Assembly (NCBI RefSeq): GCF_900187125.1 | Contig: NZ_LT906468.1 | Span: 806,001 to 870,000, forward strand | Source: Sphingobacterium mizutaii | GTDB taxonomy: Bacteria > Bacteroidota > Bacteroidia > Sphingobacteriales > Sphingobacteriaceae | Direction of reading: 5' to 3' | DNA: 64,000 bases | In this document: in pieces, positions 2,983-20,227 of the stretch | Layout of the letters: the number at the start of each line of letters is the position of its first letter | Position numbering within the stretch: position 1 is the stretch's first letter | Program-made: the position numbers and the translations under genes | Notes under the pieces: model-generated | The model's database searches: none | What the model was told of the DNA's origin: nothing | Seen by the model: only the letters and a program-made list of their open reading frames with translations

Positions 2983-2990
2983 TATTATAG

Positions 2991-3018
2991 TATTGTGATT
3001 TGAGAATTGAGATTTGAG
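2991..3018. repeat. Heptamer-periodic array (4 units, WWTTGAG-like)
   Basis: Four consecutive 7-nt units of the form (T/A)(A/T)TTG(A/T)G lie directly before the start codon of permease A. The same motif family appears before permease B and, in the opposite orientation, behind four permease genes. Confidence 0.75.
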
Positions 3019-3088
3019 ACGCATAGTTTCAAATTCAATTCAACTAATTAATTTCCTGTTTTCAATAAGAATTATAAAGCTATACCTC

Positions 3089-5535: not shown

Positions 5536-5543
5536 TTTAGTAG

Positions 5544-5564
5544 TATTGAGATTTGAGTATTGAG
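5544..5564. repeat. Heptamer-periodic array (3 units, WWTTGAG)
   Basis: Three heptamers (TATTGAG, ATTTGAG, TATTGAG) lie in the leader of permease B, eight bases before its ATG. Same family as 2991-3018. Confidence 0.7.
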
Positions 5565-5612
5565 ATATGGAGATAGCAAATTCCATATCATTTTTTTTGC
5601 TTTAAACAGCAA

Positions 5613-5629
5613 TTCAATTCGTTTGCCAT
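5613..5629 (-). promoter_or_regulatory. Sigma-54-type promoter for permeases B-A
   Basis: Minus strand reads ATGGCAAACGAATTGAA, matching TGGCAM-N5-TTGR, a variant of the sigma-54 consensus TGGCAC-N5-TTGC. It lies about 80 bp upstream of the permease B start and exactly 52 bp from the proximal palindrome core, a geometry shared with three other units here. Confidence 0.6.
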
Positions 5630-5681
5630 AATTGTAACATACTGATTATCTGATAATTGAGTATATCAATAAAGATTGATA

Positions 5682-5719
5682 TGTTCATTATCGGACGATT
5701 TGTTGTTCGCAAATGAACG
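5682..5719. promoter_or_regulatory. Paired palindromic operator upstream of permease B
   Basis: Two 16-bp sites, TGTTCA-N4-CGGACG (5682-5697) and TGTTCG-N4-TGAACG (5704-5719), begin 22 bp apart, so they lie on the same DNA face. They match the TGTYCG-N4-CGRACA motif at 14218, 19783 and 20122 and are the likely binding sites of the NtrC-type activator encoded at 21575. Confidence 0.6.
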
Positions 5720-5727
5720 TAATGGTT

Positions 5728-5995
5728 TGAACCAGGATTAAAGGGATGGGAGGATGGACCAAGATCATGGGTAAGAACCAGGATTGGGTTCGGCTCCCTT
5801 TCGGCGGTTAGGGAAGCCGAGATGTCGCTCAGGGAACAGCTCACCCACCGAGGATTGGAGGATGGACCAAATAAGTGATTCATTTCCCGCTTGAAAGATT
5901 TCCAGGTTGGTAGGGGCGTATCGCATACGCCCGCCGTATGAATTTGAACCAGAGTTCCTTCCACGGTCCGAAGGTCAAGGACCTGTTCGCCAATA
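5728..5995 (+). repeat. Composite intergenic repeat patch
   Basis: Between permeases C and B lies a patch of repeat modules: two GAACCAGGAT...GGACCAAG phrases, a palindrome GGGCGTATCGCATACGCCC (about 5915-5935), and a module with GGACCTGTTCGCCAATAC that recurs near 29533. Minus-strand readings through it give a 116-residue frame made of repeat sequence, which I do not call a gene. Confidence 0.75.
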
Positions 5996-6052
5996 CATTT
6001 TTTAAGAGATATCTAGTCTGTCAATTCCCCCCACAATAACCCACTATATAGG

Positions 6053-6120
6053 TCTTATGTCTATTGTCTTAAGTCTTAAAACCTTTCCACTCTCTCAAAT
6101 CTCATATCTCACATCTCATA
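6053..6120. repeat. Two adjacent heptamer arrays after permease C
   Basis: 6053-6080 holds four heptamers of the TCTTATG/TCTATTG type; after a 12-bp spacer, 6093-6120 holds four of TCTCNNA. The stem-loop at 6127-6143 follows. The same order (TCTNNNG array, spacer, TCTCNNA array, stem-loop, stop codon) recurs behind permeases D and E. Confidence 0.8.
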
Positions 6121-6126
6121 TCTTTC

Positions 6127-6143
6127 CAAGGGCAAAGCCCTTG
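6127..6143 (-). repeat. Stem-loop directly after permease C
   Basis: CAAGGGC / GCCCTTG with an AAA loop, a slightly shorter copy of the element at 3121, just beyond the stop codon. It has no T-run. Confidence 0.7.
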
Positions 6144-6145
6144 AA

Positions 6146-8557
6146 TTACTCATCCCTCAAGCTATCCACTGGATTTGCTTTGGCGGCGAAGTAAGTCCTG
6201 GAGGTCAGCACCAGTGTAGCAACTGCCGAAAGGCCTATTCCGGCGATCACAAAAATCCACCATGAAAGTTCGGTTTTATAGACAAAATCGTTCAGCCATT
6301 CATGCATAAAATACCAGGCAATTGGGAATGCAATAACAGAAGCGATAATAACAAGGAGCATTAGGTTCTTCAATAGCAAGAATATTATCTGGCTGATCGA
6401 TGCACCTAGAACTTTACGGATGCCGATTTCTTTTACACGCTGGTTGGTGATGAATACCGCCAAACCAAACAATCCTAGTGAAGCAATGCTGATGGAAAGC
6501 CATACAGCCCAACTCAATAGCTTAGATAGGTTCTGTTCGGTTTTATAGAAATTGGCAATAATATCATCGACGAATTTATAGTCAAAGGTTTCCTCAGGGT
6601 AGAGGCTTTTAAACTTGCTTTCGATTTTACTAATCGCATTTTTCCAAGATTCAGGGTGGTTTTTATCCAAAGCCACATGCATCATATAGCCCGAATTGCT
6701 GCTCCAGTACATCGTAGGTCTTACGGCTTCGCGGGCAGAAGAAATATTAAAATCCTTCATTACCCCAACAATGGTTGTTTGGCCATTATTGAATGTTTTG
6801 CCAATGGCGTCCTCAGGGTTTTTTAGACCCAGAAGTTCCAACATCTTGACATTGATAATACTTTCCGAAACAGAGTCAAGAACTCGGACGTTTCTACCAG
6901 TTATTAGCGGAATATTATAAACCTTAATAAAGTTCTCATCGCCGTTTCTAGCATCGAAGGTGACCATTTTCTTGTCCGAAGTGTTTTGGTCATACGCCAT
7001 TCCAGAGCTCATATAACCATTGAATGCCGGAGATTGATTGCCAAAACTAACCGCATTTACTTCAGCTAAATTTTCCAATTCAGTCTTTAGGACCTTTCCC
7101 TTTTGCTCACGGTCGAAATTTGGAACGAAAAAAGTCACTACAGCATCCTTATTGAAACCCATATCCATATTAACAGCATAATGGATCTGCTTGGATACCA
7201 CCAATACGGCAATCAAAAAAACTTGCGCCAAAACAAATTGGAAAATGGTCAATCCTTTTCTTACCCAGGCGCTTCTGCTCAGATTACTGTTTTTTGTGGC
7301 TTGATTTTTCAAGGCCATAATAGGAGAGTATCCCGTTAATACCCATGCCGGATAAAAACCCGCAATACAGGTAATAACCAGCAGTTGAAGAACCAAAAAT
7401 CCTATGATTTCCAAAATTGGAATAGATGAAACGGTAAATCCTTTAGGAAGAAATCCTGCGAAGGCCTGAGTCAGGATAGGAATTAATATTACGGATAATA
7501 TCGTAGCAAATCCTGCAACTAAAAATGTCTCCAATAGAAATTGTTTTACCAGATTTGACTTCTTTCCACCCAATGTTTTCCTGATTCCAATCTCTTTAGC
7601 ACGCTCTGTAGATTGAGCCGTAGAGAGATTGATAAAATTAATAGCTCCTAAAGTCAGTAGGAAGACCGCTAACAAAATTAAATTTCTTAAGGTGGATTCT
7701 TTTACAGCATTATAATTGAATTTAATGTCAAAATGGACATCCTTTAAGGGTTGAAGGATAAAATTATCCTTCCAATCATAATCATTTTGCTCTTTGTTCT
7801 TACTTAAGATCCCAGCAATTACCTTTTCAATATTTTTAGGCGAAGTTCCAGCTTTTAATAAGATAATACATTGATTGCCACCATTATAATTACTCCATTG
7901 ATCCCAAGATTTTATCACTTTCAAGGAAGCATTGTTTTCAACCGTTGAAACAGAAATAATTCCATCATACTTGAAATCAGAATTCTCTTTCATATCAGCT
8001 ACGACAGCTCCAACAGTCAATTGTATGCTATCCGCATATAAGATGTTTTTCCCTACCACTTCACTAGCATTAGCCTTTGGGAATAGAACCTCGGCCTTAC
8101 TTTGGGTAAGAACAATAGTATTAGGCTCTTTTAGGGAGTTGATATCTCCCGCTAAAGAAGCATGTGGAAATATGCTGAAGTATTTTTCATTGCTAAAGGT
8201 CAAACCTTCTTCATTTGGAAACACTTTTTCTTCCTGACCAGCTTCCTTTTCGATTTTCAACTTTGCAGTCCCTAATTCCAAATTCGGAACAACTGCCTCC
8301 ACACCCGTCAATTCCGTTTGCATGGCCCGTATCAATGGAACCAATACCGCGTCGCCTTTATAACCTCCATCACTTACAACCTTATATACACGGTCTCCAT
8401 ATGGCAAATGCTTGTCAAAACTAAAGTCATAGCGCACCATCAAAAAAATGATCAGGGTCGCACAGATCCCAATGGCCAAACTGATTACACTAATAGAGGT
8501 TACCAGTAAATTTTTCTTTAAAAATCTCCAAGCCGTTTTAAAATGATTTCTTAACAT
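6146..8557 (-). CDS. FtsX/MacB-type ABC transporter permease (paralogue C)
   Basis: Two-half MacB/FtsX permease, 803 residues from the ATG at 8557 (MLRNHFKTAW); a TTG three codons upstream is the alternative. It shows the N-terminal helix, a periplasmic core (about 45-270), FtsX half one with KEIGIRKTLGGKK, a second periplasmic domain, and FtsX half two with KEIGIRKVLGAS, ending NPVDSLRDE. No sigma-54-type promoter or operator pair is visible before it, so it probably relies on read-through from the D/E unit or an unrecognised promoter in the 182-bp gap. The substrate is unknown. It is the most divergent of the B-E group in its periplasmic core as judged by eye. Confidence 0.9.
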   Translation of the reverse strand: MLRNHFKTAWRFLKKNLLVTSISVISLAIGICATLIIFLMVRYDFSFDKHLPYGDRVYKVVSDGGYKGDAVLVPLIRAMQTELTGVEAVVPNLELGTAKLKIEKEAGQEEKVFPNEEGLTFSNEKYFSIFPHASLAGDINSLKEPNTIVLTQSKAEVLFPKANASEVVGKNILYADSIQLTVGAVVADMKENSDFKYDGIISVSTVENNASLKVIKSWDQWSNYNGGNQCIILLKAGTSPKNIEKVIAGILSKNKEQNDYDWKDNFILQPLKDVHFDIKFNYNAVKESTLRNLILLAVFLLTLGAINFINLSTAQSTERAKEIGIRKTLGGKKSNLVKQFLLETFLVAGFATILSVILIPILTQAFAGFLPKGFTVSSIPILEIIGFLVLQLLVITCIAGFYPAWVLTGYSPIMALKNQATKNSNLSRSAWVRKGLTIFQFVLAQVFLIAVLVVSKQIHYAVNMDMGFNKDAVVTFFVPNFDREQKGKVLKTELENLAEVNAVSFGNQSPAFNGYMSSGMAYDQNTSDKKMVTFDARNGDENFIKVYNIPLITGRNVRVLDSVSESIINVKMLELLGLKNPEDAIGKTFNNGQTTIVGVMKDFNISSAREAVRPTMYWSSNSGYMMHVALDKNHPESWKNAISKIESKFKSLYPEETFDYKFVDDIIANFYKTEQNLSKLLSWAVWLSISIASLGLFGLAVFITNQRVKEIGIRKVLGASISQIIFLLLKNLMLLVIIASVIAFPIAWYFMHEWLNDFVYKTELSWWIFVIAGIGLSAVATLVLTSRTYFAAKANPVDSLRDE

Positions 8558-8620
8558 TTTGGTCAATATTTAATTTAATATCTTCTTTATTTATCCCCCT
8601 AGCAATACCCCGCCAGAATT

Positions 8621-8695
8621 TCTGTTGTCTTATACCTATTATCTTATGTCTACAGCCATGTAGCCTTCCCTCTCTCTCAAATCTCACATCTCATA
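8621..8695. repeat. Two heptamer arrays after permease D
   Basis: Five TCTNNNG-like heptamers (8621-8655, one changed to CCTATTA), a 19-bp spacer, then three TCTCNNA heptamers (8675-8695). The phase is kept strictly within each array although positions 4-6 vary. Confidence 0.8.
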
Positions 8696-8718
8696 TCCAT
8701 TCAATCATCTCATATCCA

Positions 8719-8739
8719 TTCAAGGGCAAAGCCCTTGAA
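8719..8739 (-). repeat. Stem-loop directly after permease D
   Basis: Perfect TTCAAGGGC / GCCCTTGAA hairpin with an AAA loop abutting the stop codon, identical in stem and loop to those after permeases B and E. Confidence 0.75.
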
Positions 8740-11130
8740 TTACTCATCCCTCAAGCTATCCACAGGATTTGCTAGCGCAGCTTTTATAGATTGGAAACTA
8801 ATAGTTGCCAGAGAAATAAAGATGGCTGCTGCTCCTGCGATCACAAAATAGTACCATTCCATATGGATGCGGTATTCAAAATCTTGAAGCCAGTTGTTCA
8901 TTGCCCACCAGGCAATTGGTGAAGCAATTAAGATGGATATTAAAACCAGTTTGATAAAATCCATGGATAGGAGAGAAGTGATCTGAGGAACCGAAGCACC
9001 TAACACCTTTCTTACGGCAATTTCCTTCATTCTAGTTTCCGCCATATAGGCAATCAAGGCAAGAAGCCCCAAACAGGAAATAAAGATGGTCAGTCCAGCA
9101 AAGAGCATGGCAATTGTACCTATAGCTTGAGCTTCTTTGAATTTATTTTCAAATACTTTATCAATAAAGTGATAGGAGAAGGGATATTCTGGATTGTATT
9201 TTTTAAATATGCCTTCAATGGTTTTTAAGTTGTCACTAGTTGAATGCGCTGGATTAAGACGATAATGAATGACGTCAAACCAAGCATGAGGTCCTAAAAT
9301 AATGGTAGGTTTACTGTTGTCAAATGGGGAGTCCATGATAAAATCTTTGATTACTCCAACTACAGTCCATTTTCCTCCTACTCCCTCAATAATACTTCCA
9401 ATAGGATTTTCCAATTTCAAAGCTTTAACTGCAGATTCATCCAATATGATTGCTGAACTGTCCGTCGGAAACTTATATATGTCAATATCTCTACCAGAAA
9501 CTAAGCTAAACCCAATGTTTTTAATGGCATCAGCATCCGAACTAAACCAGAGATAATTTATTCTTTTGTCCTCTTCAGAAGAAGCGTTCGAAATTATTCC
9601 TTGACCGGATGAATAATAATCTGTAATTGGAGACATGTTCTTGGAAACAGAAATTACTGCTTGACTTGACAATAACTCATTCCTTATATTCAGATAATTT
9701 TTAGCAATATTTCCTTCTATTTCAGTGTATAACAAACCATTGGCTTGGTATCCCTGGTCACGCTCCTTACTATATTGAATCTGGTTTGTAACTACCACTG
9801 TCGCAATAATTAATATTATGGCGAATGAAAACTGAATGACAACTAAAACAGAACGAATATTTACACCTTTTTTACTGGCGTTAAATTTTCCCTTCAAGGT
9901 GCTGATGGGTTTAAATGCCGATAAGAAAAAAGCAGGATATGCTCCAGCCAATATTCCAGTTAATAACGCAAAGGCAATTAAAAAGAACCAAGTATTTACA
10001 GTAAAATAGCCAATACTAAGATTTTTTGAAACGAGTTCATTGAAATAGGGCAATGCAATGAAAATAATGATAATAGAAAGTACTAAGGCAAAGAAGCTTA
10101 TCAAAATACTTTCAGTTAAGAATTGGAATACAAGAGTTTTCTTGTTAGCTCCAATCACTTTTCTGACACCAACTTCTTTGGCTCTTCGTTCTGACTTTGC
10201 TGTGCTTAAATTCATGAAATTTATGCAGGCAACTAATAATATAAAACCACCAACCCAAGCAAAAAGCTTAACCAAATCTATCCGACCTGATTCATAATTC
10301 CCTCCCTTGCCATTATTATATAAGTAATAGTCCTGAAAAGGGAAGGCAAATAATTCGACTGTACTCTTAGAACCACTCCGAATCATATCTTTATCGGCAT
10401 TGATGTGATTTCTTGTGAAAGGTTTTATTTTTTCATTAAAACTAGCTAACGAAATTCCTTCTTTCAATAAGATGAAAGTCTTAATAGAATTATTACCCCA
10501 GTTTTCATCATAAAAACCTATATTTTTTCCATATTCCCAAGAAATTAAACCTTCAAAATCAAAACTTGAATTACTTGGATTGTCTTGAATTACAGCTTGA
10601 ACTTTTACTTGGTTGACAGAATCTATTTTGATAATCTTTCCAATGGGATTTTCTGAACCAAATAGAGCTTTTGCTTTTTTCTCTGTTAGTACGATTGAAT
10701 TCGGGTCTTTTAATAAACCAGTTTTATCACCTGAAATAAAGGAGAAACTGAACATCTCAAATAAACCAGAATCCACAAAAGCTAATTGCGATTTTAATTT
10801 TTTGTCCTGGTAAGTGGTTAAAAATAAGTGAAAATTACTATATCTTGAAAAAGATTCAATATCCGGAAATTCTTCCTTTATTGAGGGGCCAAGGATCTTT
10901 GGTGTGGCAGGCCAAGCATGTTTTGAACCTTGGTTTTCATCCCTGTTGCTCATGATATACAAGCGATCACTTTTCTCATGGTAGCGGTCCATGGTCAGCA
11001 TATTCTGCAGCCAAAGCATAATCATTAAAGCGCCGGCCATCCCAATCGCCAAACCGATAATATTTATGGCCGTAAACCCCTTATTCCTTAAGAGATTCCT
11101 CCACGCTATTTTGATATAGTTCTTAAGCAT
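8740..11130 (-). CDS. FtsX/MacB-type ABC transporter permease (paralogue D)
   Basis: Two-half MacB/FtsX permease, 796 residues from an ATG (MLKNYIKIAWRNL). An N-terminal helix (about 20-42) precedes a periplasmic MacB-like core. The first FtsX half carries KEVGVRKVIGANK, the second KEIAVRKVLGAS, and the end is NPVDSLRDE. It is closest to paralogue E: both start MLKNY.KIA.RNL and share INFMNLSTA.SE.RAKEVG in the first half. It lies 226 bp after E, in a gap filled by heptamer repeats, and likely belongs to the transcript that starts upstream of the 123-residue stub. Confidence 0.9.
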   Translation of the reverse strand: MLKNYIKIAWRNLLRNKGFTAINIIGLAIGMAGALMIMLWLQNMLTMDRYHEKSDRLYIMSNRDENQGSKHAWPATPKILGPSIKEEFPDIESFSRYSNFHLFLTTYQDKKLKSQLAFVDSGLFEMFSFSFISGDKTGLLKDPNSIVLTEKKAKALFGSENPIGKIIKIDSVNQVKVQAVIQDNPSNSSFDFEGLISWEYGKNIGFYDENWGNNSIKTFILLKEGISLASFNEKIKPFTRNHINADKDMIRSGSKSTVELFAFPFQDYYLYNNGKGGNYESGRIDLVKLFAWVGGFILLVACINFMNLSTAKSERRAKEVGVRKVIGANKKTLVFQFLTESILISFFALVLSIIIIFIALPYFNELVSKNLSIGYFTVNTWFFLIAFALLTGILAGAYPAFFLSAFKPISTLKGKFNASKKGVNIRSVLVVIQFSFAIILIIATVVVTNQIQYSKERDQGYQANGLLYTEIEGNIAKNYLNIRNELLSSQAVISVSKNMSPITDYYSSGQGIISNASSEEDKRINYLWFSSDADAIKNIGFSLVSGRDIDIYKFPTDSSAIILDESAVKALKLENPIGSIIEGVGGKWTVVGVIKDFIMDSPFDNSKPTIILGPHAWFDVIHYRLNPAHSTSDNLKTIEGIFKKYNPEYPFSYHFIDKVFENKFKEAQAIGTIAMLFAGLTIFISCLGLLALIAYMAETRMKEIAVRKVLGASVPQITSLLSMDFIKLVLISILIASPIAWWAMNNWLQDFEYRIHMEWYYFVIAGAAAIFISLATISFQSIKAALANPVDSLRDE

Positions 11131-11228
11131 AACTTTCTTATTTAGTGGTTAGCAATAGATTCACTGGCTCCCCGAAGAATCCCTCTAATTAATAACTCGT
11201 TTTTCCCCAGCAATAATCCACCAGAATT

Positions 11229-11331
11229 TCTATTGTCTTGTGTCTATTGTCTTATGTCTTGTGTCTTATGTCTATTGTCTACAGCCATGCAGCCTTTCCA
11301 CTCTCTCAAATCTCATATCTCAGATCTCATA
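11229..11331. repeat. Longest heptamer-periodic arrays (8 + 4 units)
   Basis: 11229-11284 is exactly eight heptamers of form TCTNNNG (TCTATTG, TCTTATG, TCTTGTG, ending TCTACAG) without a phase slip. After a 19-bp spacer, 11304-11331 is four TCTCNNA heptamers. The stem-loop of permease E follows. Confidence 0.88.
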
Positions 11332-11335
11332 TCCA

Positions 11336-11356
11336 TTCAAGGGCAAAGCCCTTGAA
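11336..11356 (-). repeat. Stem-loop directly after permease E
   Basis: TTCAAGGGC / GCCCTTGAA hairpin with an AAA loop next to the stop codon; the same element as at 3121 and 8719. Confidence 0.75.
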
Positions 11357-13717
11357 TTACTCATCCCTCAAGCTATCCACCGGATTAGCAATTGCAGCTT
11401 TAATCGACTGATAACTCACAGTTAAAATCGTGATCAGCAAAGCCAGTACGGCTGTAAAAGCAAAGATTTCCCAGCTGATATTGATTCTATAAGTATAGGA
11501 GTTGAGGTATTTATTCATGGCCCAATAGGCGATAGGGAAGGCGATCAAACAAGCGATTCCTACCAATAAAATAAACTCCTTAGACAATAACCTGGTTACA
11601 GAGAATACCGAAGCACCGAGGACTTTACGGACCCCGATTTCCTTGGTTCTGCTTTCTGCCATATAGGCTGCTAGTCCAAATAAACCAAGACATGAGATAA
11701 TGATGGTAAGGCCAGCAAATAGTGCTGCCAGTTTACCTGTTTTTTGAGTTTCCTTAAATTTCAATGCATAGGCCTCGTCTACAAATTTGTAGTCAAAAGG
11801 AAAGTCAGGATTGTATTTTTTGAAGATAGCCTCTGCTTTTTTCAGGGCGTCTGTTGTTGTCAAGTTTGGATTGAAGCGGATATGGATATTGTTCATCCAG
11901 CCACTAGCTCCTTCAATAACCAAAGGTTTGACAGGTTCAAATGGAGACTCTTGGATGAAATCTTTAATGACGCCGATGATTTGAAATTTCCTTCCTCCAT
12001 CATCGAAGATTTTGCCGATGGGGTCTTGAAAGCCCATGACCTTGGCCCCGGATTCATTGATAATGGCGGCCATCGAATCGGTAGGGAATTTAGTCAAATC
12101 AAAATCGCGACCTGCTATTAAGGTAAAACCTACCGTTTCAACAACTCTATCATCACCTGTTTGGCGATTAAAGTCGATAATGCTATTGGGGTCTTTTCCT
12201 TCCCAAGTGAAGCCATTCCAGCCGCTCCAACGTTCTGTCAATGGAGACATTAATCGACTAACGGATTGCGCCACATTTTGGTCTAATAGTTCCTGCTTGA
12301 TCAGTTGCACATTCTTAGTGATCTCACCGACCTCTGGAACATAGATCAGGTTCTCTTTTTCAAATCCAAAGTCGCGATCTTGGGCATGTTTGATTTGCTT
12401 TTGGATAACAACGGTACTTACGATCAATATCAAGGCTATACTAAATTGGGTAACAACCAGTACTTTCCTAGGGTTGATTTTTTGCTGTATGCTATGCAAT
12501 CGTCCCTTTAACACCTTGACCGGATTAAAGGAAGACAGAAAGAATGCAGGGTAAATGCCAGCTAGAAAGCCTGTGAACAAAACAAACCCAACAAATAGGA
12601 TCCAAAATCTAAAATCCTGAAATGGTATTTTGAATTTCATGCCCACCAAATCATTAAATGCAGGTAGGACCAAAATGACAATAATAAAGGCAATCAGACC
12701 TGAAAAGCAAGCCAGTAATAATGATTCAGAAAGGAATTGGAACACCAAACTTCTTTTTTGTGCGCCTACGACCTTTCGGATTCCAACCTCTTTCGCTCTC
12801 TTTTCACTTTGGGCAGTACTGAGGTTCATAAAGTTTATACAGGCAATCAACAGAATTAAAGCAGCGATAAGGGTAAATGTTTTCACCATTTCTATCCTTC
12901 CGCCAATTACTTTTCCGTTCTTGTATTTATTGTAAAGGTATATATCAGCAAAGGCTGTCAGAAAACTGACCGTCTTTACTTCGGAGTGTCTTGGAATCAA
13001 GTCTTTGATTTGCTCTTGGATTTTTGGGAGATGCTTTTTATCATTGATTTCTACGTATAAATCCACGGAACTATTTCCCCATTGGCTATCTGAAAACCCT
13101 AGTTTTTCCATTAAGGTCCATGGAACATAGTATTCATAGCCTTGGAATATAAAATTGGATTCTGTTTCCTTTATGACCCCAGTAACTGCTAGCACATTGG
13201 TGCTATCCAGTCTGATCGTTTTTCCAAGTACATCTGTAGTGCCGAATAGATTGTTAGCAAGTTTCTCAGATAAGACAATGCTGTTCGGGTCTTTTAATAA
13301 GGTGTTTCTATTCCCACTCAATAAGGGTAATTCAAACATGTTCAAAAAGGCTGAATCTACAAATACACCGGTTCCTGCCGGAACTTTTTTATCGCCAATT
13401 GTAAATAAAAAACCTCTGGTACCACTTAACCTGGAAACATTCAGCACTTCTGGAATTTCTTCCTTTACCACGGCTGCCATAGGTTTTGGAGTAGAAAACC
13501 ATGTTGCGGAATCCTGGTCTGTCGCTTCTTTAGAACCGACAGCATAGAGATTTTCGATTTTTGGGAAATTCTTGTTGAATCCATACTGAAAATTTACCCA
13601 TAACAAAATCAGCATTGCAGCCGCCATTCCAATGGCTAATCCAACTATATTAATTGCCGTAAAACCCCTGTTCTTCTTAAGATTACGAAAGGCTATCTTG
13701 AAATAGTTTTTGAGCAT
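11357..13717 (-). CDS. FtsX/MacB-type ABC transporter permease (paralogue E)
   Basis: Two-half MacB/FtsX permease, 786 residues (MLKNYFKIAFRNLKKNRGF). An N-terminal helix (about 20-42) is followed by a MacB-like core, an FtsX half with KEVGIRKVVGAQK, a second periplasmic domain, and an FtsX half with KEIGVRKVLGAS ending NPVDSLRDE. Its ATG lies one base after the TGA of the 123-residue stub (TGATATG), so the two are probably translationally coupled. The stub resembles its first ~70 residues. The operator pair and promoter near 14149-14255 drive this unit. Substrate unknown. Confidence 0.9.
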   Translation of the reverse strand: MLKNYFKIAFRNLKKNRGFTAINIVGLAIGMAAAMLILLWVNFQYGFNKNFPKIENLYAVGSKEATDQDSATWFSTPKPMAAVVKEEIPEVLNVSRLSGTRGFLFTIGDKKVPAGTGVFVDSAFLNMFELPLLSGNRNTLLKDPNSIVLSEKLANNLFGTTDVLGKTIRLDSTNVLAVTGVIKETESNFIFQGYEYYVPWTLMEKLGFSDSQWGNSSVDLYVEINDKKHLPKIQEQIKDLIPRHSEVKTVSFLTAFADIYLYNKYKNGKVIGGRIEMVKTFTLIAALILLIACINFMNLSTAQSEKRAKEVGIRKVVGAQKRSLVFQFLSESLLLACFSGLIAFIIVILVLPAFNDLVGMKFKIPFQDFRFWILFVGFVLFTGFLAGIYPAFFLSSFNPVKVLKGRLHSIQQKINPRKVLVVTQFSIALILIVSTVVIQKQIKHAQDRDFGFEKENLIYVPEVGEITKNVQLIKQELLDQNVAQSVSRLMSPLTERWSGWNGFTWEGKDPNSIIDFNRQTGDDRVVETVGFTLIAGRDFDLTKFPTDSMAAIINESGAKVMGFQDPIGKIFDDGGRKFQIIGVIKDFIQESPFEPVKPLVIEGASGWMNNIHIRFNPNLTTTDALKKAEAIFKKYNPDFPFDYKFVDEAYALKFKETQKTGKLAALFAGLTIIISCLGLFGLAAYMAESRTKEIGVRKVLGASVFSVTRLLSKEFILLVGIACLIAFPIAYWAMNKYLNSYTYRINISWEIFAFTAVLALLITILTVSYQSIKAAIANPVDSLRDE

Positions 13718-13718
13718 A

Positions 13719-14090
13719 TCAGATCAGGTAATTGATTTGTTTAATGAACTGCGGAAGGTTTGAAGCCTTACGCAAGACAACTATTACCCTATTTCCACTT
13801 GCAAGTGGTTTTATTCTAATAATGGTTTCCTTTTTGCATAATCTGCTCAGTTCCATTTCCGAACGTTCGATTCCAGCAACAACTTGCTTCTTAATTGAAA
13901 ACTCTTTCGTCTCAGCAGCATACCAAATCCCATCAGCGGGGATGTTTTTATTAAATCCATACTGCAGATTTAACATCAACAGAACCATCAAGCTAGATAG
14001 GCAACAGATGCCCCAAACTGAGTTTTTTCCCTTTAATCCTTTAACCTTCTTCAGAAGCATAAAGGTTTTATTTAAATATTGATTTTGCAT
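13719..14090 (-). CDS. Permease-like stub, single-helix small protein or remnant
   Basis: 123 residues. About residues 1-70 resemble the start of permease E: after a basic stretch and one hydrophobic helix, the stub has LNLQYGFNKNIPADGIWYAA where E has VNFQYGFNKNFPKIENLYAV. The rest is unlike a permease. It has its own ATG, sits first behind the sigma-54-type promoter (14149-14165), and ends one base before the ATG of permease E. It could be a leader or accessory membrane protein, or the decayed 5' end of a duplicated permease kept because it couples translation of E. I see no frameshift inside it. Confidence 0.6.
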   Translation of the reverse strand: MQNQYLNKTFMLLKKVKGLKGKNSVWGICCLSSLMVLLMLNLQYGFNKNIPADGIWYAAETKEFSIKKQVVAGIERSEMELSRLCKKETIIRIKPLASGNRVIVVLRKASNLPQFIKQINYLI

Positions 14091-14148
14091 GGCCTTTGAT
14101 TAGTGATAAGGTTATGAAACCATAATTTTTTCAACCCATAAATCAATA

Positions 14149-14165
14149 TCCAATTCATTTGCCAA
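14149..14165 (-). promoter_or_regulatory. Sigma-54-type promoter for stub-permease E
   Basis: Minus strand reads TTGGCAAATGAATTGGA (TGGCAA-N5-TTGG). It is 59 bp from the stub's ATG and 52 bp from the proximal operator core, the same layout as at 5613, 19714 and 20211. Confidence 0.65.
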
Positions 14166-14217
14166 AAATGTAAATAATTCATTATCAATTGATTGTTATT
14201 TATTCAGGTATTGTAGT

Positions 14218-14255
14218 TGTCCGTTATCGGACGGTTGTTTGTTCGGTAATGGACG
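14218..14255. promoter_or_regulatory. Paired palindromic operator upstream of the stub
   Basis: TGTCCG-N4-CGGACG (14218-14233) and TGTTCG-N4-TGGACG (14240-14255), 22 bp apart. The C/G change at the fourth base of the left arm is matched by the paired base in the right arm, so dyad symmetry is conserved, as expected for a dimeric regulator. Confidence 0.65.
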
Positions 14256-14264
14256 GGCTGTTAT

Positions 14265-14292
14265 AGTATTTAGTAGAGAGTATTTAGTATTT
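14265..14292. repeat. Heptamer-periodic array (4 units, AGTATTT)
   Basis: Four heptamers, three AGTATTT and one AGTAGAG, in one phase. The reverse complement of this family forms the array at 15111-15138. Confidence 0.75.
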
Positions 14293-14325
14293 AGACCTTG
14301 AACCGGGATGGGGTTAGTATATTAT

Positions 14326-14697
14326 CGCTTGAAAGTCCCCATACAAACCTAAATTAATATCATTTTCAGATTAAAGAAATTCTTCGATTTTAAAATTCTC
14401 GTGTGTAAAAATTCCACATCCCAATCTCCATTGGACATGAAATGTTTTTCAATTATTCTCTTCGTTACTATTGTAACCCAAATTAACCAAACCGACAAAG
14501 GAGCTCTGGTGTTATGGTTTGAACCAGGATTAAAAGGATGGGAGGAAGGACCAAGATTATGGTCAAATATAGCTTGAAAGTCCCGCATAGTGTAGGGGCG
14601 TATTGAATACGCCCGTCCCATACAAACCTAAAATAACATTATTTTCAGATTATAGAATTTCCTTGGTTTTCATATTCTCATGAATTAAATTTCCACA
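14326..14697 (+). repeat. Duplicated ~95-bp element, one copy carrying a palindromic insert
   Basis: Copy 1 (14326-14418) and copy 2 (14571-14697) share GCTTGAAAGTCCC, CATACAAACCTAAA, ATTTTCAGATTA and a TTCCACA end. Copy 2 has 34 extra bases (14585-14618) containing the palindrome GGGCGTATTGAATACGCCC between GAAAGTCCC and CATACAAACC, which are joined in copy 1. Between them (14513-14560) is a GAACCAGGAT...GGACCAAGAT module. The region 14091-15145 contains no convincing gene. Confidence 0.7.
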
Positions 14698-14757
14698 ACT
14701 CGAGACTATGCAAAAATCCTATTTTGTAAGCAGAAAAGAACGCATTGGCTTACAGTT

Positions 14758-14776
14758 CCATAATCGAAGATTATGG
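14758..14776. repeat. Short perfect stem-loop in gene-free DNA
   Basis: CCATAATC / GATTATGG with a GAA loop. Just upstream, TGTAAGC (14725-14731) and GCTTACA (14748-14754) form another possible stem. Function unknown. Confidence 0.45.
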
Positions 14777-14795
14777 ATGACAGGCAATTGTGTTA

Positions 14796-14836
14796 GAGAA
14801 CCGTACAGATTCTTCACTAATCGGTCAGAATTGGAA
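14796..14836 (-). repeat. 41-bp dispersed element, inverted relative to 29456-29496
   Basis: The reverse complement matches 29456-29496 over about 41 bp with three differences, including a 22-bp identical core (14796-14817 against 29475-29496). Confidence 0.75.
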
Positions 14837-14931
14837 GTTTCTAGAGAGGGGTTCAGAGTAAAATGAAGAATCTATTTTAAATTTTTTCGAAGAATAACAC
14901 CCTAAATTGCGATAATATTCATGGACAGATC

Positions 14932-15052
14932 AACGGCGGGCGTATTCGATACGCCCCTACCAACCTTGATTAATATATGGTTGAAAATAGGTAATCCGCC
15001 AATAATCTTGGTCTATCCTCCCATCCCATCCATCCTGGTTCAAATCCCAAAA
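14932..15052 (-). repeat. Dispersed intergenic repeat with palindromic module
   Basis: On the minus strand: GAACCAGGATGGATGGGATG..., a GACCAAGATTAT end, then the palindrome GGGCGTATCGAATACGCCC near 14937-14957. Same modules as 5728-5995 and 29310-29450. Confidence 0.75.
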
Positions 15053-15060
15053 CCTTACAC

Positions 15061-15085
15061 AAAAAAGCCGGCCTTTTAGGCCGGC
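15061..15085 (-). terminator. Intrinsic terminator of the hlyD-permease F-ATPase unit
   Basis: GCCGGCC / GGCCGGC stem with a 5-base loop, followed by a run of six T on the minus strand. It lies about 60 bp after the ATPase stop codon. Confidence 0.8.
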
Positions 15086-15110
15086 AGTTATATCAAAAGT
15101 TTAACAAAGT

Positions 15111-15138
15111 CTAAATACTAAATACTTTCTACTAAATA
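15111..15138. repeat. Heptamer-periodic array (4 units, CTAAATA)
   Basis: Four heptamers (three CTAAATA, one CTTTCTA) between the ATPase stop codon and its terminator. It is the reverse complement of the AGTATTT family at 14265. Confidence 0.75.
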
Positions 15139-15145
15139 CTAAACC

Positions 15146-15826
15146 CTACAATGCCGTTGTAGTCTCCAATATTACCTGACCATCCAGCATCCGGATCACG
15201 CGATCCGAAAACTTTGCATCATGCTCTGAGTGGGTAACCATAACGATTGTTGTGCCGCTTTCATTGAGTTCGGTCAATAGCTGCATAACTTCATTACCAT
15301 TGCTGGAGTCCAAGTTACCAGTAGGCTCATCGGCAAGGATCAGTTTGGGATTATTGACTACCGCACGGGCAACGGCAACACGTTGTTGCTGACCACCGGA
15401 AAGCTGTTGTGGGAAGTGATTACGGCGGTGCATAATCTGAACTTTCTCCAGTACCTCTTCCACGCGTTTCTTACGTTCTGCGGGAGGGACATTGGTGTAG
15501 ACCAAAGGAAGTTCCACGTTTTCAAATACGGTCAATTCATCGATCAGGTTGAAACTTTGGAATACAAATCCAATATTGTGCTTACGCAAATCCGAGCGTT
15601 TGTTTTCCTTGAAATGTGCCACCTCAATATTATTGAAAAGATAACTACCTTCATCCAAATCATCCAAAAGACCGATAATGTTCAAAAGGGTAGACTTTCC
15701 ACATCCCGAAGGTCCCATTACTGCAACAAATTCACCTTCCTTAACATGGATATTCACATTGTTCAAGGCAACGGTCTCTACCTCCTCGGTACGGTAGAAT
15801 TTTTGAAGATTGGTTATTTTTATCAT
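15146..15826 (-). CDS. ABC transporter ATP-binding protein, LolD/MacB type
   Basis: Cytoplasmic ATPase, 226 residues, the usual size for LolD/MacB N-domain proteins. Walker A GPSGCGKST is at 38-46, Q-loop Q90, signature LSGGQQQR at 142-149, Walker B LILADE at 162-167 followed by PTGNLD, and the switch histidine is H199. It is the only ABC ATPase in the block, so it presumably energises several or all of the six permeases, as separate LolD does for LolC/E. It follows permease F by 50 bp and ends the hlyD-permease F-ATPase transcript before a clear terminator. Confidence 0.95.
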   Translation of the reverse strand: MIKITNLQKFYRTEEVETVALNNVNIHVKEGEFVAVMGPSGCGKSTLLNIIGLLDDLDEGSYLFNNIEVAHFKENKRSDLRKHNIGFVFQSFNLIDELTVFENVELPLVYTNVPPAERKKRVEEVLEKVQIMHRRNHFPQQLSGGQQQRVAVARAVVNNPKLILADEPTGNLDSSNGNEVMQLLTELNESGTTIVMVTHSEHDAKFSDRVIRMLDGQVILETTTAL

Positions 15827-15876
15827 GTGTTTCTTTGTTTAAAATAAATAAATTTCAGTTTTATAATAGGTTAATG

Positions 15877-18261
15877 TTATTCGTTCCTCAATGTTTTCGT
15901 AGGGTTGCTCGTTGCTGCCCGCAAAGCTTGCGTACTGATGGTAAATAATGCAATGACTATGGCTAGACCTGCAACCATCAGGAAGATCATCCAAGGCATA
16001 TCCATGTGATAATTGTATCCCTTTAGCCAATCTTGCATAAACCACCAAGCGATGGGATAGGCTATTAAACATGAAATCCCAACTAAAATAATAAATTCTG
16101 TATTCAACATTCTCACCAAACGACCTACAGATGCACCCAATACCTTACGGATACTGACTTCTCGAGCTCTTTGTTCTGCCGAAAATGCAGCCAATCCCAA
16201 TAACCCTAGACAGGAAATAATGATGGCCAAAATAGAGAATAGGCTTGCCAACTTTTGCAGCATCATTTCTGAAGAAAAATAGTTGTTAAAATCATCATCC
16301 AAAAAGGTATAATTGAATGGGAAATCGGGGTTATACTTCTTCACGATTCCCTCAATCTCTTTCAATACCTTAGGAAAGTCCACCCCCGGTTTCGTTTTGA
16401 TGTTTAATATCCCTGCTTCTACGCCATAGGCTTTTCCTAAAGCTAAAGGTGCCAATACCAAAGGCTCTGCTTCATCATAAATACTGTTGTAGACATAATT
16501 TTTTACAACGCCTGCCACAGTTAATGCTTCCCCTTGAAACTTGATCAACTTCCCAGCCACCCTGCCATCGGGTTGAATCAGTTTCGCCATGCTTTCATTG
16601 ATTAATACCGAACTGCTATCGCCTAATAGGTTAGGTCTGAACGTCCTCCCATCCATGATTTTCATGCTCAAGGCATCTACGAAATCCTCATCTACAAAGG
16701 AAAAGCCAATCAAGATCGAAGACTTTGGATCTTTACCATCCCATTCGAATGAGGAGGTATTGGAACCAACTTGTAAAACACTTCCACGGCTCAATCCTAC
16801 TGTCTCCACATTGCCGGTGGCTTTCAATTCCTGTTTGATTACAGGGATGTGTTTGGACATATCCCCTAAAATATTCGTCATAATAACCTGGCTACGGTCA
16901 AAACCTAAATCCCGGTTCTTGGCAAACTGGATCTGAAGGTAAATGACAGAGGTACATATCATTAAGATAATGGCTGCTGTAAATTGGGTAATGACCAATC
17001 CTTTTCGGATAAGATTGCTGCTTCCGGCTTTTCTCTTGCCACCCTTCAATGTGGTCAATGGATCAAAAGAAGAAAGGAAAAAGGCTGGATAACTTCCGGA
17101 TATAATTCCAACCACTAAAATAATGGCGCTAATAAATCCAATTTGTTGCCAATTGCCAAAATCAATCGCAAGCTCTTTGTTGACCATGGTATTAAATGTC
17201 GGTAGACCTAATTTGACCATTCCGATAGCCAAAATGCCGGCAACAAATGCGAAAACAATGGATTCTCCCAAGAATTGCATGATCAAGGAGCCTTTCTTGG
17301 CACCAACAATCTTACGCATGCTAACTTCTTTTGCTCTTTTCTCAGACCTTGCAGTCGACAGGTTCATGAAATTGATACAAGCAATTAATAAGACCAACCA
17401 AGCGATTGAAGTAAATAATCGAACATTTTTTATTCTTCCATCCTTTTCAATGCCTTGTTCAAAACGATCGTACATGCGCCATCTTTCCATCGGGTAAAGG
17501 AAATTCTCCGAATTGGCTTCTTTATCATTGTTGATCTCGGCTATGTAATTCTTAACCTTCGCATTCACTGCATTTAAATCTGCATTTGGCTCTAATTGTA
17601 CAATGGTTTGTATACTGTTATTTCCCCAGAAATCATATCCAAAATCTTTATTGGCTTCCAGGATTTTGAAATTCAGGAGCCAATCATATCGAAAATTCGT
17701 ATTTTTTGGAAAATCCTTAGTAACAGCTGACACGGTATAAACTTGATTGTTGTCGAACTTTATGGTCTTTCCAACAGGGTTATCATCATTGAAGAAGCGT
17801 TTGGCAGTGGATTCACTCAAAACTATACTGCTTGGGTTATCTAAGGCTGTTTTTGCGTCTCCTGCCAAGAATTCCGGATTGAGGATACTGAGGATTTCTG
17901 GATCTACATAATTTCCAGATTGATAGATTTTCTTGTCTCCAACTGTAAATAGTTTAGTATTTCCCCAATCAATCCTGCCTGAATTGAGAATGCCTGGGAT
18001 ATCTTTTTTTAGGGCTTTGGCAAATGGACCTGGTGTAGCGCCAAATACATTGATATTTCCATCATAAGTCTGCTTTGACTTAGCTACATAGATGTCCTTT
18101 TTATTGCTGAAATAATCATTGTAGGATAGCTCGTCTTGAACCCAAAGGAAAATCAATGCTGTTACGGTTATCCCCAACGCTAAACCAAAAATATTCAAGA
18201 AGCTATATCCCTTGGTTTTCCAGAGGTTTCTAAAGGCGGATTTTATGAAGTTTTTGATCAT
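15877..18261 (-). CDS. FtsX/MacB-type ABC transporter permease (paralogue F)
   Basis: Two-half MacB/FtsX permease, 794 residues (MIKNFIKSAFRNLWKTKGY). An N-terminal helix, MacB-like periplasmic core, FtsX half with KEVSMRKIVGAKK, second periplasmic domain, and FtsX half with REVSIRKVLGAS ending NPTKTLRNE, the most different C-terminus of the six. Unlike the others it is directly linked to the ATPase (50 bp downstream) and HlyD-type adaptor (167 bp upstream), so hlyD-F-ATPase is likely the core exporter and the other permeases additional subunits. It lacks the 3' stem-loop found after B-E. Confidence 0.92.
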   Translation of the reverse strand: MIKNFIKSAFRNLWKTKGYSFLNIFGLALGITVTALIFLWVQDELSYNDYFSNKKDIYVAKSKQTYDGNINVFGATPGPFAKALKKDIPGILNSGRIDWGNTKLFTVGDKKIYQSGNYVDPEILSILNPEFLAGDAKTALDNPSSIVLSESTAKRFFNDDNPVGKTIKFDNNQVYTVSAVTKDFPKNTNFRYDWLLNFKILEANKDFGYDFWGNNSIQTIVQLEPNADLNAVNAKVKNYIAEINNDKEANSENFLYPMERWRMYDRFEQGIEKDGRIKNVRLFTSIAWLVLLIACINFMNLSTARSEKRAKEVSMRKIVGAKKGSLIMQFLGESIVFAFVAGILAIGMVKLGLPTFNTMVNKELAIDFGNWQQIGFISAIILVVGIISGSYPAFFLSSFDPLTTLKGGKRKAGSSNLIRKGLVITQFTAAIILMICTSVIYLQIQFAKNRDLGFDRSQVIMTNILGDMSKHIPVIKQELKATGNVETVGLSRGSVLQVGSNTSSFEWDGKDPKSSILIGFSFVDEDFVDALSMKIMDGRTFRPNLLGDSSSVLINESMAKLIQPDGRVAGKLIKFQGEALTVAGVVKNYVYNSIYDEAEPLVLAPLALGKAYGVEAGILNIKTKPGVDFPKVLKEIEGIVKKYNPDFPFNYTFLDDDFNNYFSSEMMLQKLASLFSILAIIISCLGLLGLAAFSAEQRAREVSIRKVLGASVGRLVRMLNTEFIILVGISCLIAYPIAWWFMQDWLKGYNYHMDMPWMIFLMVAGLAIVIALFTISTQALRAATSNPTKTLRNE

Positions 18262-18300
18262 AATCTATTTGTTGGTTGTTTTGTCTTTATGCCGAATTAC

Positions 18301-18416
18301 TGTGAGGCTTTCCTAGCCATCACAGCGCTTCGACATGCCTTTATTGTTTTATTTATTCATTTGGTTTTCTTTTCAATAACCGTCGCCTCGAATTAGCGGT
18401 TCACTGACGACGGTTA
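18301..18416 (-). other. Stem-loops between hlyD and permease F
   Basis: TGTGAGGCT / AGCC-A-TCACA (18301-18324) and TAACCGTCG / CGACGGTTA (18377-18416) can form hairpins. Neither has a T-run, so they may modulate relative expression within the operon rather than end it. Confidence 0.4.
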
Positions 18417-18428
18417 ATAGGCAAACAC

Positions 18429-19682
18429 TTATTGCTTTATGTTTAATTCCTGTATTTTATCATAAGTTTCATAACTCGAAACCACCACTTTATCACCAGG
18501 TTTCAATCCATTTAACACTTCATAATATTCAGGATTCTGCCTTCCTAGTTGTAAATCTGTGCGGTAAGCTGTTTTTCCATCCTTATCCAGTTTGAAAATC
18601 CAGTTTCCAGCGGTCTGTTGGTAGAAACCTCCTTTGGCTAATAGTATTGCCTTAGTTTCATCACTTAAGGCTAAGCGGATAGTTAAGGTTTGACCACGAC
18701 GGATGCCTTCTGGTCTTTCACCGACAAATTCCATATCCACTTGGAATCTTCCGTCTTTGACTTGGGTGTACACCTTTTTGATCCTTAGCTCATAGGTTTT
18801 ATTACCTATACTGAATTGTCCCTTAAGGTCAGGGAAGATGCGGTTGATATAGTGTTCATCAATTTCTGCACGAACCTTGAATCCAGTCAGTACGTCGATC
18901 TGGCCTAGTCGTTCACCTGGGTTCTTATTTTGTCCAACTTCCGCATCAAATGATGTCAATTGTCCGTCAACTGGAGCACGAAGGATCAAATCCCCAACTT
19001 TCTTGCGCATCAGATCCAATGCCTGTTGGGTACTTTGGTATGTCTTGCGGTCTTGACTCAATTTTTGGTTGTTGGAAATTTCATCCTGTTTCAAGATCTG
19101 CTTGGTCAATTCAACCCTTTCCTTTTGGTAGTTATATTCGTTCAGCGATTTCTGATATTCCTGAGAACCGATCGCTTTCTCTTCCAAAAGTTTTTTGTTC
19201 AATTCATATATACGTTTTGATTCCTTGTAGGCCTGTTCTACATCTGCCATTTGGTTTTTGTTGGAAATGGAAGCCTGTTGCGCATTGGTCTGTGCAATTT
19301 GAGCTTGTGTCAAAAGGTTCAAGACCTGAGTTTCGTTCTGAACTAAACTCAATTCCATATCTGTATTGGAAAGACGCATAATGGGATCTCCTTTATGCAG
19401 GTGTGCCCCATCTTCAACATACTTTTCTTCGACACGGCCTCCAACTGAAGCATCTAGATAGATACTGCTGATAGGAAGAACGGTACCATTTATAGGAATG
19501 AATTCTTGAAATGTATCTTCTTTAACTTCAAAGATGGAAATACGCTCTGCATCAACATTCAACTTGCTGTTTCCACTGGTATAGTAATAACTCGCACCGA
19601 TCAGCGCAACAATACCTGCAATTCCAGCTACAGTTAGGATCCTTTTGCTATTCCACTTCTTTTGTTCAATTGGTCTGTCCAT
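18429..19682 (-). CDS. HlyD-family periplasmic adaptor subunit
   Basis: Membrane fusion protein, 417 residues. A basic N-terminus and one membrane helix (about 16-34) anchor it in the inner membrane. Split lipoyl/barrel halves are near 65-115 (VGGRVEEKYVEDGAHLHKGD) and 230-265 (LRAPVDGQLTSFDAEVGQ), separated by a Gln/Lys/Glu-rich coiled-coil hairpin (about 115-225). A beta-barrel and membrane-proximal domain follow, with PGDKVVVSSYETYDKI near the end. It should connect the FtsX permeases to the TolC protein encoded divergently at 20252, as MacA does for MacB-TolC. It is the first gene behind the promoter at 19714-19730. Confidence 0.93.
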   Translation of the reverse strand: MDRPIEQKKWNSKRILTVAGIAGIVALIGASYYYTSGNSKLNVDAERISIFEVKEDTFQEFIPINGTVLPISSIYLDASVGGRVEEKYVEDGAHLHKGDPIMRLSNTDMELSLVQNETQVLNLLTQAQIAQTNAQQASISNKNQMADVEQAYKESKRIYELNKKLLEEKAIGSQEYQKSLNEYNYQKERVELTKQILKQDEISNNQKLSQDRKTYQSTQQALDLMRKKVGDLILRAPVDGQLTSFDAEVGQNKNPGERLGQIDVLTGFKVRAEIDEHYINRIFPDLKGQFSIGNKTYELRIKKVYTQVKDGRFQVDMEFVGERPEGIRRGQTLTIRLALSDETKAILLAKGGFYQQTAGNWIFKLDKDGKTAYRTDLQLGRQNPEYYEVLNGLKPGDKVVVSSYETYDKIQELNIKQ

Positions 19683-19713
19683 GTAATTCTATGTTCAAAT
19701 TTGCAATATGCAT

Positions 19714-19730
19714 ATACAAGGTTGTGCCAA
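19714..19730 (-). promoter_or_regulatory. Sigma-54-type promoter for hlyD
   Basis: Minus strand reads TTGGCACAACCTTGTAT. The -24 half TTGGCAC is perfect; the -12 half is weaker. It lies 52 bp from the proximal operator core and 31 bp from the hlyD start codon. Confidence 0.6.
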
Positions 19731-19782
19731 AGTTTTAAAATGATGAAAATCAATGTTTTAAATAAAGTATGCTAGATGTGAC

Positions 19783-19819
19783 TGTTCGAAAGCGAACAGT
19801 AATTGTGCGATGCTGAACA
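19783..19819. promoter_or_regulatory. Paired palindromic operator upstream of hlyD
   Basis: The proximal site is perfect: ACTGTTCG-AAAG-CGAACAGT (8-bp arms, 19781-19800). The distal site TGTGCG-N4-TGAACA (19804-19819) is degenerate and begins 21 bp away. They probably bind the activator encoded at 21575. Confidence 0.7.
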
Positions 19820-20121
19820 ATAAAAAAGCAGGCAATTATATAGTAGGGCTGATTTGGGTTTTCAAGGACTTAATTAAAAAGCTTAAAAATGTTGGGATTT
19901 ACTTTTGCACTGAAAAATAGGCTACATTTTATTGGTCTCATTCGACCCATGTTCGAGGCAGCTTCGAGAAAATATTCGACTTCATGCAGGGCATTTTGCG
20001 AAAATTCCGAATATGTCTCGAATTTGGTCAATTATTCATCCAGTCAGGCAAGATCCTTTATGCAAAATTTGAGGGATGCATGGCTAGTCTTCAAAAAATC
20101 ACCGCTGTTGATCGCTTTCAG

Positions 20122-20159
20122 TGTTCATAAGCGAACACTTTCATGTTCGGCTTCGAACA
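20122..20159. promoter_or_regulatory. Paired palindromic operator upstream of the tolC operon
   Basis: TGTTCA-N4-CGAACA (20122-20137) and TGTTCG-N4-CGAACA (20144-20159), 22 bp apart. The second is a perfect dyad. The 569-bp divergent gap thus holds separate operator pairs for each arm. In between (about 19970-20045) is a TTCGA/TCTCGAA-rich stretch that resembles 50150-50215. Confidence 0.7.
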
Positions 20160-20210
20160 GCTTATGCTTTCTTTAATTATTAATATGTTGATAAACAATG
20201 TTTTAATTAT

Positions 20211-20227
20211 TTGGCACAGCCTATGGA
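20211..20227 (+). promoter_or_regulatory. Sigma-54-type promoter for tolC-regulator-kinase
   Basis: TTGGCACAGCCTATGGA: perfect -24 half, spacer of 5, degenerate -12 half ATGG. It lies 51 bp from the proximal operator core and 25 bp from the tolC start. It makes the regulator operon autoregulated if the operators bind its own product. Confidence 0.65.

Follow-up and report, generated by a model that had tools for sequence, protein, structure and literature searches.

Paired dyads at rigidly spaced sigma-54-type promoters suggest an exporter regulon under an NtrC-type regulator in Sphingobacterium mizutaii

In sigma-54 regulons of the NtrC/ZraSR type, a regulator with receiver (REC), AAA+ and Fis-type helix-turn-helix (HTH) domains is encoded beside a kinase, paired dyads lie upstream of -24/-12 promoters, and the regulator operon is autoregulated. 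The darobactin exporter DarBCD and MacAB-TolC combine MacB_PCD/FtsX permeases with an adaptor, an ATPase and TolC. Counterparts of both kinds of system are found together in a region of the Sphingobacterium mizutaii genome that was analysed as a window of 64,000 nucleotides (bases 806001-870000 of the 4.65-Mb single-contig genome). The window encodes an NtrC-type response regulator (P0001, 21575-22930, + strand), which very probably controls, through paired sites and sigma-54 promoters, a set of permease, hlyD and tolC units. This assignment draws on the sites, their geometry, the genome-wide membership of the regulon, its conservation and its co-occurrence with the regulator. The locus differs from NtrC/ZraSR-type regulons in a near-invariant 50-57 bp geometry over more than 100 promoters, in a palindrome built into the promoters, and in that the regulon in this genome is given over to exporters. 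It differs from DarBCD and MacAB-TolC in having many permeases per adaptor and predicted two-component sigma-54 control.

Sigma-54 has been associated with the cell exterior (PMC3162934), and sigma-54 promoters were predicted at FtsX-like permeases of COG0577, with enrichment in Bacteroidia, in a report claimed as the first evidence of this kind (PMC12316311, PLoS One 2025). The present system likewise ties sigma-54 promoters to FtsX-like permeases; in contrast, the available part of that report gives no regulator, operator or regulon, and the string "sphingobacter" is absent from its main text. No description of this regulator, operator or regulon was found in the open-licence PMC literature, which covers the field in part and leaves most subscription papers outside. 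The proposed regulon is new; its promoter layout is unusual and rigid, and its mechanism is of a known kind.

Four intergenic regions of the window each carry two 16-bp dyads, located by a pattern scan and predicted to be regulator sites. On the minus strand, the pair before permeases B-A occupies 5682-5719 (proximal dyad 5682-5697, distal dyad 5704-5719), the pair before the stub-E-D-C unit 14218-14255 (14218-14233 and 14240-14255) and the pair before hlyD 19783-19819 (19783-19798 and 19804-19819). On the plus strand, the pair before tolC lies at 20122-20159 (distal dyad 20122-20137, proximal dyad 20144-20159). These positions and the spacing of dyad starts (22, 22, 21 and 22 bp) had been proposed in an earlier sequence-only reading and were confirmed by the re-scan. 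The consensus TGTYCR-N4-YGRACR from the same source held for seven of the eight dyads; the exception, TGTGCGATGCTGAACA at 19804, deviates from it at one position. With at most one mismatch allowed, the single dyad was found 23 times in the window against 5.2 expected, and none of 100 shuffles reached 23. No additional pairs were found inside operons in the window at up to three mismatches per pair. When the whole genome was scanned for pairs with up to three mismatches, eight places were obtained, five with dyad starts 22 bp apart and three with starts 21 bp apart; the reversed control pattern matched once. Four of the pairs are those of the window, and four lie elsewhere (genome positions of all eight: 805059, 811682, 820218, 825783, 826122, 1042872, 1387545 and 4559904). 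Exact single dyads at five other places in the genome (among them 1983675, 3143134, 4005425 and 4060959; L012-L015 were scanned) are not paired. The layout originally described at four places is real, but that count was incomplete, since eight predicted promoters exist genome-wide, and a third conserved element had been overlooked.

The best -24/-12-like element at all eight pairs lies on one side, 52-54 bp from the proximal dyad. Before B-A it is TGGCAAACGAATTGA (5614-5628, -), before stub-E-D-C TGGCAAATGAATTGG (14150-14164, -), before hlyD TGGCACAACCTTGT (19716-19729, -) and before tolC TGGCACAGCCTATGG (20212-20226, +). Counted from the proximal dyad to the T of TGGC, the gap is 53, 53, 53 and 52 bp in the window and 53, 52, 54 and 53 bp at the outside pairs. 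The near-constant spacing noticed earlier was thus upheld, although the values then given (52, 52, 52 and 51) were one too low. A TGGCAM-N5-TTGR-like element is present at all four window promoters, as had been stated, but the hlyD promoter has N4 between TGGCAC and TTG, one base less than N5, and the -12 of the tolC promoter is ATGG. Shuffling of the flanks gave an equally good element (score at least 14, offset 50-55, either side) with a frequency of about 0.2% per pair. The genome-wide search that had been advised for the dyad pair with a promoter at fixed spacing thus yielded eight pairs, each with an element, against one control match.

The genes following the eight promoters are permeases at six, hlyD-permease-ATPase at one and tolC-regulator-kinase at one. 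At E 1e-20 or better, 13 TIGR03434-like matches were obtained in the genome, 12 of them of the full-length type. All 12 full-length two-domain ADOP-like permeases lie downstream of dyad-pair promoters, co-directional and with gaps of 1-226 bp within units, and the downstream genes would be co-transcribed with these promoters as operons. The 13th match (415 aa, at 4090738) is half-size and not near any pair.

Conservation was studied in 60 congeneric genomes. A spacing-22 pair was found in 46 of them (reversed control, 0/60) and a spacing-21 pair in 49 (reversed control, 2/60). An orthologue of the regulator is present in 49 of the 60 genomes, which are exactly those with pairs, and none of the 11 others has a pair. 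Perfect agreement of this kind is one arrangement in C(60,11), about 3e-12, a value uncorrected for shared ancestry. As these 11 genomes also lack full-length ADOP-like permeases, the system in its entirety is lost or absent there.

Promoter geometry was compared over 111 pairs, 8 from this genome and 103 from 15 further genomes; only the 16 genomes with fully listed pairs entered, and two duplicate pairs from overlapping stretches had been removed from 113. Of the 111 pairs, 102 have a -24/-12 element at 50-57 bp on one side or both, with both sides occupied in three. Under the scoring of the shuffle test the observed number was 103, against a shuffle mean of 3.9 and a maximum of 7. Among sides scoring at least 13, the best element lay at 51-56 bp in 99 of 106 (counted before removal of the two duplicates). 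The G of the -12 is kept in 90 of 92 N5 sites. In a hold-out set of 15 further genomes the promoter was present at 19 of 20 pairs. Dyads and spacing are conserved in these congeneric genomes. The 105 promoter sides precede a permease (40), TolC (16), HlyD (13), an ATPase (4) or another gene (32). All 16 TolC promoters are at 52 bp with N5. In several species a single pair lies between divergent hlyD and tolC promoters, 52-54 bp from either.

When linkers were aligned on the -24, a palindrome, TAA-N4-YTG-N5-CAR-N4-TTA, was found between the dyads and the promoter, at positions -31 to -7, counted from the T of TGGC. In the window it occupies 5635-5659 (-, 10/12 positions) at the B-A promoter, 14171-14195 (-, 10/12) at stub-E-D-C, 19736-19760 (-, 11/12) at hlyD and 20181-20205 (+, 12/12) at tolC; the eight promoters of this genome score 9-12 of 12. 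After removal of near-identical linkers, sets of 82 and 75 were kept, the latter less than 70% alike. The 75 linkers score 9.3 on average when in register and 3.0-5.3 when out of it, and 64 of them score at least 8, a circular figure, as the palindrome was derived from the same 75. The hold-out genomes, which are relatives and so not independent, gave 9.5 in register and at most 5.8 elsewhere, with 17 of 19 sides scoring at least 8. The bare pattern matches the window three times against 1.2 expected; its strength lies in its fixed position. At the two promoters in which the -24 lies at 44 bp (L134 and L165), about one helical turn nearer the dyads, the palindrome shifts together with the -24; therefore, the change in length, near one helical turn, sits between the dyads and the palindrome.

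The right half of the palindrome matches the IHF core, CAA-N4-TTR, and the left half is its mirror image. The strict IHF core WATCAANNNNTTR was found in 14 of 82 linkers, where shuffles gave a mean of 0.8 (maximum 7 of 300), and in 4 of 117 promoterless sides; this signal is weak alone, and the aligned profile was stronger. The resemblance to two opposed IHF half-sites, together with the persistence of the palindrome in other genera in which the dyad has diverged, suggests a homodimeric IHF/HU-like bending protein, which is plausible because most bacterial HU proteins are homodimers (PMC5683647). We tentatively propose, with chances that we would place slightly below even, that every promoter of the regulon has a symmetric IHF-type site locked to the -24 for such a homodimer, and that palindrome and -24 form a family-wide sigma-54 module taking different activator sites. 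If true, what a homodimeric IHF-like protein prefers as sequence could be read from the module, and bending of DNA at sigma-54 promoters would follow a simple sequence rule in a phylum whose promoters of this type have received little study.

The regulator at 21575-22930 matches PF00072, PF00158 and PF02954 above cut-off (REC, sigma-54 AAA+ and Fis-type HTH). Its nearest named relatives are from Sphingobacterium (S. cellulitidis, 92%; S. endophyticum, 90%). It did not belong to a named NCBIfam equivalog (NtrC, ZraR, AtoC), scoring below every cut-off among the best 25 of 88 matches (ZraR, 338.6 versus 760 bits). The genome has one rpoN gene (one PF04552 match, E 1.1e-56) and four clear sigma-54 activators, namely this regulator and three others (L064, L065 and L066); a further four PF00158 matches, all weaker (E 3e-9 to 5e-4), were not counted as activators.

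It has to be considered whether the dyads instead belong to a different sigma-54 activator, or to a regulator that is unlinked, the NtrC-type regulator merely lying in the same operon. The regulator-less genomes also lack full-length permeases, so that co-occurrence alone cannot separate the regulator from the exporters, and a different, co-lost regulator would give the same pattern. The persistence of pairs in G037, where the regulator gene is split, would also fit such an explanation. However, all 11 pairless genomes keep one to three sigma-54 activators, and the seven of them with activator sequences have orthologues of L065 and L066 in every case and of L064 in two. Genome G004, which has pairs, contains only three activators, the regulator and the orthologues of L065 and L066. 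Moreover, a dyad pair lies before the tolC-regulator operon in 16 of 16 genomes examined. Because the other three activators have orthologues in pairless genomes, the dyads can be assigned by elimination to regulator 21575, and another activator seems unlikely. It is more improbable again that the dyads are repressor operators, with incidental or minor -24/-12-like elements and transcription from Bacteroidota housekeeping promoters. The AT-richness of intergenic DNA speaks for this possibility, but it would leave unexplained the TGGC at a fixed distance in 102 of 111 pairs and the retained -12 G; the sites also lie well upstream of the promoter, as activator sites do. Finally, the permeases are paralogous, and the spacing might be a by-product of recent duplication of promoter-permease units and not of selection. 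We give this very little credence, since the 75 promoters less than 70% alike in the linker retain palindrome and -24 while their linkers otherwise vary freely, genes of no mutual relation (TolC, HlyD, secreted proteins) have this layout as well, and the palindrome follows the -24 when the latter moves to 44 bp.

Several observations weigh against control of these units by regulator 21575 through sigma-54 promoters. In two genomes the reversed control matched at spacing 21 (63 times in G006, twice in G028); the 63 matches in G006 suggest an unrelated repeat family. Full-length ADOP-like permeases are missing from the same 11 genomes as the regulator, with only half-size matches in G011 and G020. 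The -12 elements of tolC promoters differ from TTGC, and 11 of 13 HlyD promoters have an N4 spacer, one base short, which could set a weaker or delayed response. Nine of the 111 pairs depart from the usual promoter position: in two the promoter lies at 44 bp, in two a weaker element lies at 64-65 bp, four precede a permease or hlyD with an element that is weak or unrecognised, and one (L147) has nothing convincing. The sigma-54 contact loop, GAFTGA in textbook activators, is GAFTDA in the regulator, in 21 of 21 relatives (L016-L036) and in 19 of 20 wider relatives (L211 did not match the pattern used); the other sigma-54 activators have G[AS]FT[GS]A. In G037 the regulator gene is in two overlapping pieces with stops (G037:C1:716545-717898), and eight pairs with promoters or permeases persist. 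Nevertheless, the proposal that the regulator at 21575 drives the permease and hlyD operons and its own tolC operon is supported by the specificity and spacing of the sites, by co-occurrence, by the other activators of pairless genomes and by the single rpoN.

A mechanism may be outlined. The adjacent sensor histidine kinase, the predicted partner (22933-24252, +), would sense a signal and the regulator would be phosphorylated. Two regulator dimers could then occupy the paired 16-bp dyads, the starts of which are separated by 21-22 bp or about two helical turns. The DNA would be folded by a bending protein bound to the palindrome, immediately upstream of the -24, and at the -24/-12 the AAA+ ring would remodel sigma-54 RNA polymerase. 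A single signal would thereby raise tolC, the regulator's own and kinase genes, hlyD-permease-ATPase and all the scattered two-domain permeases. The likely purpose is to supply many interchangeable permeases to one MacAB/DarBCD-like adaptor/ATPase/TolC exporter. The exporter probably acts against envelope-active compounds, and its resemblance to MacAB/DarBCD suggests peptides, antibiotics or lipoprotein-like substrates as cargo. Bacteroidota have a large group of MacB/FtsX-type permeases that are otherwise orphans, and the regulon provides for these a regulator and an operator that can be tested. It also suggests that many permeases share one adaptor/ATPase/TolC set under one signal.

With an E-value limit of 1e-120, a wider-order search for the regulator gave matches in 244 of 300 genomes and in 14 of 17 genera; these may include paralogues and served only for picking loci. 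Twenty loci represented other genera or distant relatives, and an hlyD match was present in 14. L192-L194 share their genomes with L029-L031, and several of L016-L028 lie in genomes that also have G handles; these were never summed. The -24/-12 element and the palindrome are in exact register at 7 of the 14 hlyD loci (12 of 1400 shuffles) and, with a one-base shift that was allowed after the exact-register result, at 12 of 14 (40 of 1400 shuffles). A regular expression tried first on the hlyD promoters of these genera caught 4 of the 14 loci, being too strict, and scoring was used instead. L193 (one mismatch), L196 (two) and L207 (three) retain a recognisable dyad pair of the Sphingobacterium type in the expected position. 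In these sequences the palindrome is more conserved across genera than the dyad, which would fit a general bending protein on the palindrome and a diverging regulator on the dyad. In L197-L200 and L208, another repeated dyad, TGTATCA..CCGYACA / TGTAACA..GCGTACG, was seen by eye at a similar place; it seems to stand in for the Sphingobacterium dyad and hints at co-evolution of operator and regulator.

The B-A unit (-) begins with a MacB_PCD/FtsX two-domain, ADOP-like permease (3142-5586), followed by a second permease (535-3024). In the stub-E-D-C unit (-), a 123-aa open reading frame (13719-14090) directly after promoter E gave a BLAST match to a window permease and no Pfam or NCBIfam family; it is possibly a truncated permease. 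Permeases E (11357-13717), D (8740-11130) and C (6146-8566) follow, the last two having MacB_PCD matches in the genome search. The hlyD unit (-) encodes a HlyD/RND-type periplasmic adaptor, DarC-like below cut-off (18429-19682), permease F (15877-18261) and an ABC ATPase, DarD/LolD-like below cut-off (15146-15826), and a TolC-like outer-membrane protein (20252-21559, +) opens the regulator operon. The Dar equivalog cut-offs were not reached (DarD 304 versus 375, DarC 171 versus 450, DarB 94-119 versus 700). Like the ADOP duplicated permeases (TIGR03434), the window permeases are of about 800 aa, two-domain and multicopy; unlike these, they are linked through regulation to an adaptor and ATPases. 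Because the full-length-type permeases score 235-323 bits, under the cut-off of 622, they are considered relatives of ADOP and not members; the cut-off was exceeded in 0 of 16 genomes examined. The pairs outside the window precede three permeases with an ATPase (L008), single permeases (L009 and L010) and a split permease (L011). The split permease, after the pair at 4559904, is in two reading frames of 276 and 544 aa (L011:5295-7794; G000:C1, about 4557295-4559795).

Compensated changes between dyad arms had been described as frequent and were considered as added evidence. This was rejected: compensation is visible at 14218, yet in a set of 54 non-redundant pairs, with 108 dyads, matched arm positions do not covary beyond chance (Fisher p = 0.61 and 0.10, the second value pointing the other way). 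Among the 32 promoter sides before other genes, 23 precede a small secreted family with an RVDYITL motif, found in seven genomes (e.g. L122-L126, L129-L132 and L186-L191); the family is multicopy, and one member matches Lumazine_bd_2 (PF12893). In other species, the layout was also seen before a secreted beta-lactamase-family protein (L148) and a DUF4932 protein (L110), and, by eye only, L111 and L171 appeared serine hydrolase-like.

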